NCBI RefSeq assembly: GCF_003350475.1
Contig: NZ_QQAV01000010.1
Location: forward strand, 1 to 64,000
Origin: Pseudacidovorax intermedius
GTDB taxonomy: Bacteria; Pseudomonadota; Gammaproteobacteria; Burkholderiales; Burkholderiaceae_C
Reading direction: 5' to 3'
DNA length: 64,000 bases
Shown: positions 18,040 through 24,336 of the stretch, in pieces
Numbering within the stretch: position 1 is the first letter of the stretch
Layout of the letters: the number at the start of each line of letters is the position of its first letter
Program-made: the position numbers and the translations under genes
Notes under the pieces: model-generated
What the model was told of the DNA's origin: nothing
Seen by the model: only the letters and a program-made list of their open reading frames with translations
The model's database searches: none

Positions 18040-21000
18040 ATGCAGTGGCTCTCCGACAACCTGGAGGCGCTGCTCGAAGCGCCCGATGAGCAGCGACGTT
18101 TCGACGCCGTCGTCGTGGGCTCCGGCTACGGCGGCTCGGTGGCGGCACTGCGGCTGGCCGAAGCCGGGTTCAATGTCGGCGTGCTCGAACGCGGGCAGGA
18201 GTACGTGGCTGGCGAATTCCCGAGCGACCTGGGCGATGTCGGCAAGTACGTACGTGCCCAGTGGCAGGGCGCGACCGGCGTCCAGGGGGCCGGCTACGAG
18301 GATGCGCTCTTCGACTTCCGGGTGGGGCAGGGCGCCGCGGCCCTCGTGGGCAACGGCCTGGGCGGCGGCAGCCTGATCAACGCCGGTGTCGGCCTGCAGC
18401 CCGAAGCGGCGGTGTTCCAGTCCGAACACTGGCCTGCCGCCATCCGGCGCACCAACCTGCAGCCGTGGTTCGACCGAGCCCGTGCCATGCTGGAGTTGTC
18501 CAGGCCGGACGACGGTCAGCGTTGCTTCGACCCGCAGGGCACGCGCAAGTACCAGGCGCTGCGCGGGCTGCACGACCGGCTGCCCTCCCGGCCGGCCCGG
18601 GGCGACTCCGCCGCGGTCCGGCCCGAATTCGAGGAGGTGCCCATCGCCGTCTGCCTGCATCCCTGGCAGGTCATGGCGCACGAGGGCGCGCTGGGCCCGC
18701 GGTCGGCCTGCACCGGCTGCGGCAACTGCGTCAGCGGCTGCAACGACGACGCCAAGCTGACGCTCACCAAGACCTACCTGCCCGCTGCCCGGCGGGCGAG
18801 GGCGCGGCTGTTTGCGGGCGTGACGGTGCTCAGCGTCCATCGCGAGGAGGATGGCGACTTCCCCTGGGTGCTGCGCGTGGTCCGCACGGCCGAGCGCAGC
18901 CTGTACGAGGGCCAGCGCCAGCATGCAGGTGCGGCGGCCCGCGCCGGCTGGGTGCATGAACTGCGCGCCCGGCAGGTGGTCCTGGCGGCCGGCACCTTCG
19001 GCAGCACGGAGATCCTGCTGCGCTCCCGTTCCGCGCCAGAGGGCACGCCACGCGCGCCGCTCGGCACCAGCGACCGGCTCGGCGAGCGCGTGTCCGGCAA
19101 CGGCGACGACGTGGCCTGCATTGCCGAGCTGGATGCGCCGGCCAACGCACTGGGCGACACGGCCGCTGGCCGAAGCCCCGAACCCGCCGGGCCGACCATC
19201 TCCGCCATGATCCGCTTCCGGGATGCCGGCGACGAGCGTCGCTCGACCCTGGTTCAGGATGGCGGCGTGCCGGGGCTGCTGGCGCCCGTGTTCCAGGAGC
19301 TCATCCAGACGCTCACCACGCTCGCCCGGCTGGACGACCCCCCCGGTCCGGCATCGACGGAGGTGGACGACCTGGCGCCGCAGCCGAAGGTGCTCACCCA
19401 CTCGCTCACGCTGCTGGGCATGGGTCATGACGACAGCCCCGCCCGCATCGACCTGGATACGCGCAGCGACCGCATCCGCTGGCAGTGGCCGCGTCCCGAG
19501 GCGGCGTCCGCGCCGCCGCTGCACCGGGCGCGCGTGGCGCCCGCCACGGGCCAGGATGGGCGCTACCTGCGCAATCCGGGCAGCGGCATCCTGCCGCCCA
19601 CCATGGACGGGCTGCTGGGCGGGGCCGGCATGGGCCAGTTGCTGGTCACCGTCCATCCGCTCGGCGGTTGCCCCATGGGCGACGATGCGGTGCAAGGGGT
19701 GTGCAACCACCTGGGGCAGGTCTTCCGCGGACCGCAGGGCAGCGATGTGCACGAAGGCCTGTATGTGATGGACGGCTCGGTGGTGCCGACATCGCTCGGT
19801 GTCAATCCCATGCTCACCATCACCGCCCTGGCCGAGCGCAGCTGCGCCGACCTGGTGCAGCGCCTGAATGCCGGGTCGGCCGCACGGATGCCCCCGCCGG
19901 CTGGCGCCGTGCCTCGGCCCTTGTCTGCGCCGGTCGTGCCTGCGCCCAGGCCGACGAGCACCGCCGGCGCCGTCGCCCCGGGTGCGTCGCTGCGCGAGGT
20001 GCTTCGCGGCCTCGTGCAGCCATCGCCCTCGCAGCAATGGTGCGGGCCCTTGCCTCGGGACGCGGTGCCCGTGGGCGATGCCGCCTCGCTCTTCGTCCAG
20101 ATGGAGGTGAGCGACTGGGCGCGCTTCCTGGCCGACCCGCGCCATCGGGCGCTCGTCCAGCCCTCGCGGATGGCGCCCTCCAGTGCCTATGAGGCGTCGC
20201 GCCTGCTGGTGCAGCTCGAAGGCCGCGCACCGCGCACGCTGTGGGTGGAAGAGGGCCATGCCGACCTGTATGCCCGCCAGCCGGAGTCCTGGCCGCGGCA
20301 TGCGAGTCGCTGGCTGCGGCTGGTCCTCACCTACACCCTCAGCCGCTGGCTGCCGGATTCTGGCAAGGAGGGCGGCGGAAGCTTCTCGTTGAAACCCGCC
20401 AACCTGTGGCGCGTGGCCCGGATGCTGTGGCAGGCCGCGGAAGTACGGGTCTTCGATTACCGCATGGTCCTGCGCATGGAGGTCGAGGACAAGGACAAGG
20501 CCAGGGCCGAGCCGCCGCTTCATCTGCGCGGCACCAAGGTCATCGATGGTGCAGCGTCCTGGAAGGACCTGGGGCAGTGGTGCCGCGCTGCATGGGCCGG
20601 TGGCTGGCCCGCCGTGCCGCGCCCCAGCGTCTGGAGCCAACTGGGCGAACTGCCCCTGTCGCTGAGCGACGCGTCCGGCCAGGTCCTGCTGCAGGGTCGG
20701 CTGCGCATGGACATGCCCGACATCGCCCGCAACCTGCTGCCCCAGCTGCACAGCGGCCGCGACAGCGTGACGGCGACGATGGCCGCGCTGGGCTATCCGC
20801 TGATGCTCGCGCGCGGGCTGCTGCGCACGCGGCTGCTGGACTTCCGTGCGCCGGACTACGCTCGCCGCACCGTGCCGCCCGCGCCGCCGGCAGGTGGCGA
20901 GGCCGAGCAGGTCTGGTTGCATTTCCCCGAGGGCTGGACCCATGGCGGCTTTCCTCTGCTGCAGACCCGTCGGCACGGCCGGGTGCCGCCCTGTGCGCCG

Positions 21001-24000: not shown

Positions 24001-24336
24001 GACCTGCAGGGCCTCGCCATCGTGGCGCCACCCCTGCATGCACCCATGCGCTTCGCCAACTCGTTGGCCGACACCGTGTTGCTCGAAGAGTCGGTTCCGC
24101 TCGTCGGCGGCCTCACGCTGCAGGTCGAGGGCGTGGGCGCCTGGGACGGGGAAGGCTGGCTGGCCGTCCGGCAGTCCGAAGGCGCCGACGGGCACTGGAC
24201 GCTGGCGCTGGAGCTGCACCTGCGCGGGCAGGAAGCCGCGGCCTTCGAGACGATCCATCTCCGCGAGACGCTGCCGAGTCGCCGGCCGCGTCCGCGGAGT
24301 GCCGCTCAGAACGATTCCAGCGGCAGGCCGACGTAG
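18040..24336 (+). CDS. giant GMC oxidoreductase - alpha/beta hydrolase - PhoD-like phosphatase fusion
   Basis: A 2098-residue uninterrupted protein with three enzyme modules and no signal peptide. (1) GMC flavoprotein, about 20-605: FAD motif VVGSGYGGS near 24, a Cys224/227/230/234 cluster, HPLGGCPMG (His539) and SLGVNP (Asn589). (2) A linker (about 610-650) and an unassigned region (about 650-1025). (3) Alpha/beta hydrolase, about 1030-1400: SHCVG elbow (Cys1124), HGSDNQ (Asp1340), AHFD (His1388), plus a Cys-rich CPH-repeat insert (1220-1249). (4) PhoD-like metallophosphatase, about 1720-2090: GDQVYAD (Asp1766/1771), DDHEIVDNW (1813-1821), SSDYH (1972-1976). AAAGGGTGA precedes ATG. Reaction and substrate are unknown; steroid, lipid or aromatic alcohol oxidation is only a guess. 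It follows the two-component genes by 18 bp. Confidence 0.9.

Follow-up and report, generated by a model that had tools for sequence, protein, structure and literature searches.

How does a bacterium come to carry an alcohol oxidoreductase, a lipase-like hydrolase and a phosphoesterase on one polypeptide, and what might such a protein do next to a sensor kinase? The question is raised by a gene within the first 64,000 nucleotides of contig NZ_QQAV01000010.1 of Pseudacidovorax intermedius (assembly GCF_003350475.1; genome, 5.98 Mb), the whole stretch analysed here, hereafter the window. The gene encodes a GMC oxidoreductase, a conserved domain X, an alpha/beta hydrolase with a cysteine at the nucleophile position, a linker and a PhoD-like metallophosphoesterase. 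All of its recognized parts come from established families. We tentatively favour, at slightly less than an even chance, a cytosolic three-enzyme machine for a hydrophobic alcohol, ester and phosphoester that is dedicated to, and perhaps informs, a sensor kinase. The features of the gene are as follows.

18040..24336, + strand: fusion gene, 2098 residues in a single stop-free frame (GMC, X, Cys-hydrolase, linker, PhoD)
18079..19875, + strand: GMC oxidoreductase module, residues 14-612, cholesterol-oxidase-like by Pfam, NCBIfam and PDB sequence matches
18709..18741, + strand: CxxCxxCxxxC motif, Cys224/227/230/234, predicted iron-sulfur (Fe-S) site from conservation and spacing
19654..19806, + strand: span from catalytic His539 (first codon) to Asn589 (last codon), invariant in 14 aligned fusions
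19876..21126, + strand: domain X, residues 613-1029, conserved, with no Pfam match and no credible PDB sequence match
21127..22314, + strand: acid-lipase-like alpha/beta hydrolase module, residues 1030-1425, by profile and structure model
21409..21411, + strand: Cys1124, nucleophile-elbow cysteine (SHCVG), Cys in 76/76 relatives
22060..22203, + strand: span from Asn1341 (first codon, expected acid position) to His1388 (last codon), by conservation among readable rows
22315..23181, + strand: linker, residues 1426-1714, the fastest-evolving part, with a predicted local distance difference test score (pLDDT) mostly under 50
23182..24189, + strand: PhoD-like metallophosphoesterase module, residues 1715-2050, with a purple-acid-phosphatase fold

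An open frame is, by itself, weak evidence for a gene of this length, because long frames arise by chance at this G+C. The gene is nevertheless real, given its full-length homology to other intact frames and its low ratios of nonsynonymous to synonymous substitution rates (dN/dS), which together rule out a chance open frame. Compared with locus L018 (here, L numbers denote loci and G numbers genomes), dN/dS was 0.14 for the GMC module, 0.19 for X, 0.10 for the hydrolase, 0.33 for the linker and 0.13 for PhoD; compared with L020, the respective values were 0.23, 0.32, 0.14, 0.48 and 0.26. Every module evolves under purifying selection, and the third-position G+C of the gene is 0.89. On the opposite strand, an open frame of 2442 residues (16315-23643, -), longer than the real gene, overlaps it; across the gene, that frame contains 1 stop in the window, 1 in L018, 3 in L019 and 2 in L020, and it is probably a side effect of high G+C.

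That the fusion is an artefact of assembly or annotation, for which nothing speaks beyond the chance occurrence of long frames, has a vanishingly small probability in our estimate, given that intact fusions are found on a circular complete plasmid, in a single-contig genome and in many other assemblies. The earlier note on this DNA had described an uninterrupted frame of 2098 residues that joins GMC, hydrolase and PhoD folds. The translation of 18040-24336 indeed has no stop, and the three modules are identified, GMC and PhoD by Pfam and the hydrolase by profile and structure model. The note had also proposed to look for the same fusion in relatives, and intact fusions do occur in alpha-, beta- and gammaproteobacteria; the error that it feared, separate genes joined in assembly, was not borne out by the plasmid and the single-contig genome.

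The nearest named relatives of the window's genome, 95 % identical, belong to Pseudacidovorax (Comamonadaceae). Among 15 Pseudacidovorax genomes, including that of the window, four carry the intact gene (G000, G008, G011 and G012), and in G013 it is split in two across contig ends. Thirty-nine loci came out of a pattern-based scan of species genomes. Stop-to-stop fusion frames of 1,919-2,190 residues occur in Aquabacterium, Pelomonas, Rubrivivax, Halieaceae, Thiotrichaceae, Paramesorhizobium and others; some other loci have a GMC-hydrolase frame with PhoD in a frame of its own behind it. The circular complete plasmid belongs to Ensifer sp. PDNC004, where a fusion of 1908 residues is annotated as ‘alpha/beta fold hydrolase’; six of the seven matching Ensifer plasmid records align over most of the fusion length. 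Survey counts, which take in compact and GMC-only relatives, were 12/398 genomes of the phylum and 35/250 of the family at an expectation value (E) of 1e-60, and 14/399 of the order and 9/369 of the class at E 1e-100.

We sorted 90 distinct GMC domains, near-copies included (four of one genus), into architecture classes denoted by letters: 32 F (hydrolase and PhoD in the same frame), 29 S (PhoD in a separate frame beside GMC-hydrolase), 15 C (compact, without PhoD; L091, counted here, is in fact a split gene lying at the end of a contig) and 14 G (GMC alone, three of them cut by contig ends). The PhoD-linked rows, F plus S, thus number 61. In a tree of 86 GMC domains, from which L091, L095, L005 and L107 had been left out because of contig ends, the F state requires 7 changes and the S state 5, three of them in each case forced by strong branches. 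In an approximately unbiased (AU) test on the 73 remaining rows of classes F, S and C (L002, L003 and every G row having been removed as well, and the S group having been chosen once the first tree was known), forcing S into one clade cost 184 log-likelihood units (p-AU 1.5e-13), which rules out a single clade for the split form; on these 73 rows, the F and S states alone need 5 changes. Given this rejection and the multiple state changes, fusion and splitting must have recurred.

The link to a kinase is the second element of our reading. Two signalling genes precede the fusion in the window.

15420..16331, + strand: NarL/LuxR-type response regulator, start uncertain, receiver from about residue 97 of the frame (Response_reg 1.4e-22, GerE 6.9e-16)
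16210..18021, + strand: membrane-anchored hybrid histidine kinase, HisKA-HATPase-receiver (HATPase_c 1.1e-24, HisKA 5.3e-10, Response_reg 1.2e-15)

The kinase, whose start is uncertain (perhaps the ATG near 16267), has hydrophobic N-terminal segments and ends 18 nucleotides ahead of the fusion ATG. The nearest NCBIfam models for the regulator are NarL and ErdR, both below cut-off. A kinase, sought with one query (that of L024), immediately precedes the enzyme gene, on the same strand, in 53 of the 61 PhoD-linked rows, that is, 28/32 F (including L028 and L129, whose frames overlap the kinase) and 25/29 S. The enzyme ATG mostly falls between about -50 and +50 nucleotides around the kinase stop, so that the genes mostly overlap or lie tens of nucleotides apart. 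In the single-contig genome G465, the one genome of its genus that was covered, the connection is physical: kinase, GMC, hydrolase and PhoD occupy one frame of 2443 residues (L119:6002-13330). The same genome contains two more matches, L120, with the PhoD part in two frames, and L139, which matches fusion residues 493-1285 only. Computed separately for GMC, hydrolase, PhoD and kinase, the distances between pairs of 50 loci correlate with r of 0.91-0.96 (0.87-0.94 for distant pairs), which shows that the parts are inherited together.

Two further ideas on the kinase were set aside. Read-through of the kinase stop into the enzyme finds no support: the two share a frame in 20/56 rows, about the third expected by chance. 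Nor is the kinase exclusive to PhoD-linked forms: narrow flanks contain it in 0/14 compact rows (L091 left out), whereas wide flanks show some kinase match in 6/21 compact loci, the strongest being L160 (335.6 bits) and L161 (333.2 bits).

The PhoD module gives a Pfam match at residues 1752-1984 (9.5e-21; PF09423, 74.7 bits against a cut-off of 27), and its motifs include conserved Asp, Tyr, His and Asn positions that we take to be metal-binding. In 66 distinct domains, these are kept in 65 (D1766), 65 (Y1769), 66 (D1813), 66 (D1814), 65 (H1815), 56 (N1820), 64 (D1974) and 65 (H1976) cases, and the 14 aligned fusions are invariant at Cys1728, Asp1766, Tyr1769, Asp1813, Asp1814, His1815, Asp1974 and His1976. 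Compact proteins, annotated as 1,120-1,143 residues (WP_002741297.1, WP_149201188.1 and WP_063474201.1), have the same GMC and Cys-hydrolase modules with a shorter stretch between them and no fused PhoD, and a metallophosphoesterase gene often lies alongside. In wide flanks, such a gene is adjacent or one gene off in 13 of 21 compact loci, the other eight having been partly scanned and the count being made without a wide-flank control group. In nine loci it is upstream and of the PF00149 type (L058, L117, L118, L153, L154, L160, L161, L162 and L163); in two, L151 and L155, a PF00149 gene follows downstream past a RoxA-like cytochrome gene; and in two, L156 and L157, it is a PhoD directly downstream. 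Ten of the 13 assignments come from Pfam (L058 at 19.5 bits and L157 at 22.2 bits, below cut-off), and those of L117, L118 and L154 from the BLAST cluster only. With two Pfam families in three arrangements, the phosphoesterase coupling suggests a common requirement rather than the chance outcome of a single fusion event.

Several neighbours of these genes are worth recording in their own right. The RoxA-like (rubber-oxygenase-like) cytochrome c genes, L151:10199-12136 and L155:2566-4722, lie between the compact GMC-hydrolase and the metallophosphoesterase and hint at isoprenoid substrates or at a cytochrome electron acceptor. A CYTH-CHAD-type protein follows the separate PhoD gene in ten loci, including L025:13692-15452, the one for which Pfam was run, with a possible link to polyphosphate. 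The compact frames of L117 and L118 have N-terminal extensions of about 340-430 residues with no Pfam match, which are probably not translated because they overlap the upstream phosphoesterase frame. In L059, on a Rhizobium leguminosarum plasmid, the compact GMC-hydrolase gene is near phaC/phaE polyhydroxyalkanoate (PHA) synthase, iron alcohol dehydrogenase and CoA-transferase genes.

The GMC module is recognized by both Pfam domains above cut-off, GMC_oxred_N at 23-329 (1.1e-7) and GMC_oxred_C at 537-598 (2.2e-12). Its catalytic His is kept in 88/90 and the Asn in 86/90 GMC domains, and both in 76/76 F, S and C rows. All four cysteines of the ferredoxin-like CxxCxxCxxxC loop are present in 89/90 domains and three in the remaining one, L028, which lacks the second Cys and thus keeps exactly the three with a spacing like that of the FAD glucose dehydrogenase of Burkholderia cepacia (BcGDH). 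In the latter, a 3Fe-4S cluster is held by Cys212, Cys218 and Cys222 (PMC6719666). C224, C230 and C234 fit its C-x5-C-x3-C pattern by motif spacing, rather than by a residue alignment with 6a2u, and the loop is a predicted Fe-S site. Dehydrogenases of the BcGDH type also have an electron-transfer subunit; here, a frame of at least 250 residues with two CxxCH motifs was found in 5/80 loci scanned.

The hydrolase gave no Pfam match in the 2098-residue protein, even at E 1, and was recovered instead in the relative L060 (Abhydrolase_1, 3.7e-7), by profile and in the structure model. At the nucleophile elbow, every one of the F, S and C rows has the cysteine. Among 68 readable rows (eight compact rows stop short of the region), the expected acid position is Asn in 66, the exceptions being L130 and L120, the latter with a broken PhoD, and the His1388 position is His in 67. 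Cys1124, Asn1341 and His1388 are invariant in the 14 aligned fusions, whereas the neighbouring Asp1340 position holds D, E, H, R, S, Q, K, G, L and others. Judging from the motif and not an alignment, Asn1341 is the probable equivalent of lipase Asp324 and may have a catalytic use. Of the landmarks listed in the earlier note, His539/Asn589, the PhoD motifs including SDYH, and His1388 have stood, but residue 1124 is Cys and not Ser, and the acid it placed at Asp1340 gives way to the conserved Asn1341. Domain X is more elusive: its best PDB sequence match has an E of only 0.16, hhalign detects no internal repeat (probability 0.2 %), and fold searches (Foldseek, VIA) with the model of X plus hydrolase return lists occupied by hydrolase matches. 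Mean pLDDT was 74.4 for residues 612-1425 and 63.0 for residues 1400-2090 in the structure models.

In the machine that we envisage, the GMC site would oxidize a hydrophobic, sterol- or isoprenoid-like alcohol, with the electrons leaving through the Fe-S centre instead of going directly to oxygen; the Cys site might cleave or transfer the acyl group of an ester, or capture the oxidized product as a thioester; and PhoD would take off a phosphate or split a phosphodiester within the same compound family. For the tie between enzyme and kinase, the ErcA-kinase pair could serve as a working model. We infer what the substrate is, that an Fe-S centre is present and which way the signal runs. A bolder version, to which we would give a rather low probability, is a catalytic sensor, in which turnover of the alcohol, ester and phosphoester by the three enzymes, or the redox state of the Fe-S centre and flavin, would be reported to the adjoining membrane hybrid kinase, so that metabolism and signalling form one machine.

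A number of points weigh against the three-enzyme machine. Its substrate class is putative, Fe-S binding is predicted from a motif, and modules on a single chain need not share a substrate. The Asn at the acid position may mean that the hydrolase works slowly, acts as a transferase or has no activity. Among the F rows, L039, L057 and L060 have no kinase in the flanks, and that of L132 is divergent; among the S rows, L022 has a match, but at another place and on the opposite strand, L135 none in the flanks, L085 none in a short flank, and L033 no room for one. An L024-like regulator lies within 3 kb in 24/27 F rows and only 4/19 S rows with wide flanks, so that the enzyme is not generally accompanied by a complete two-component system. 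Fusion of kinase and enzyme was seen once. Finally, the correlation of distances does not show function, because shared descent gives it too.

The most substantial competitor, which we regard as possible and yet rather unlikely, is a plain catabolic enzyme that releases a sterol or lipid from its conjugate by removal of acyl and phosphate groups and oxidation of the alcohol, with the kinase merely switching the gene on. The nearest folds, cholesterol oxidase and lysosomal acid lipase, are what such an enzyme would call for; operons containing a kinase are common; and matches to the 3-oxosteroid 1-dehydrogenase family at 388-456 bits are found in G000, G008, G012, G598, G691 and G803. However, this marker exceeds its cut-off in 0/30 bearers, 24 of the 30 have no match of at least 388 bits, and weaker matches occur also in 14/14 control genomes; the steroid-catabolism marker is thus not shared by most bearers. 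Furthermore, a simple hydropathy scan of the fusion protein found no hydrophobic segment, and the kinase fusion and overlapping genes exceed what regulation needs. The earlier note had suggested that one chain could process a complex lipid or steroid conjugate; we retain three activities on one hydrophobic compound class, but its plain catabolic form ranks among the rivals.

Alternatively, the Cys module could be an acyltransferase or polymerase comparable to PHA synthase, in which case the protein would make a lipid instead of degrading one. The Cys and His of the PHA synthase Cys-Asp-His triad are present, with Asn where Asp is expected (a position taken from the motif), and we consider this improbable. 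Still harder to credit is that the modules have unrelated jobs and were joined for co-expression only: the switches between fused and split forms do show that fusion is not obligatory, but phosphoesterase genes from two Pfam families adjoin compact forms in several arrangements, and the parts are inherited together.

Farther afield in the window, the region downstream of the fusion (24306-31984) encodes an FAD_binding_3 protein (-), an IclR regulator, two ATP-binding cassette (ABC) transporter genes resembling cydDC, and cytochrome bd subunit I; the ABC frames recur in 8 loci.

Among the matches listed for openly licensed PMC papers, there was no description of the GMC-hydrolase-PhoD combination, of its kinase link or of the Cys/Asn/His site. 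If the enzyme feeds the kinase, it would offer a clean test case for a metabolic enzyme as the sensor of a signalling system, for which the natural series of separate genes, PhoD fusion and one kinase fusion provides ready comparisons.

Compared with known systems, each of the three enzyme modules has a solved relative from which it departs. For GMC, the top one is class I cholesterol oxidase (1b4v and others), which matches at E 1.7e-42 and aligns across the His/Asn region, but its aligned stretch lacks the four Cys, and the cholesterol oxidase model NF058674 gives 154.5 bits against a cut-off of 850; that enzyme is not known to carry a hydrolase or PhoD. BcGDH (6a2u), a 3Fe-4S GMC subunit, shares the fold (E 6.1e-11), whereas the fusion has one extra Cys and the attached hydrolase and PhoD. 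Gastric and lysosomal acid lipases (1hlg, 1k8q and 6v7n) come closest to the hydrolase in both sequence and structure and have the same fold type, but the Ser-Asp-His triad of these enzymes, with its elbow Ser, is replaced by Cys and, at the expected acid, Asn. PhoD is a secreted phosphate scavenger; the module here matches that of Bacillus subtilis (2yeq, E 7e-23), including the metal-site motifs, and yet is the C-terminal part of a protein devoid of a hydrophobic segment in the scan mentioned above. ErcA is an iron alcohol dehydrogenase, with a fold unrelated to GMC. The L024 kinase is nearest to the NahK/ErcS family, the best listed for it, at 293.3 bits against a cut-off of 400 for NF041832. 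The parts of a review available to us describe no hydrolase or phosphatase for ErcA-ErcS or NosP-NahK; they do describe the YiaY/ErcA alcohol dehydrogenase as co-cistronic with a hybrid kinase that it is proposed to modulate (PMC12997753). In ErcA/YiaY-ErcS/PP_2683 and NosP-NahK, as far as that source goes, an alcohol-oxidizing enzyme or a sensor protein is encoded together with a hybrid kinase, as it is here.

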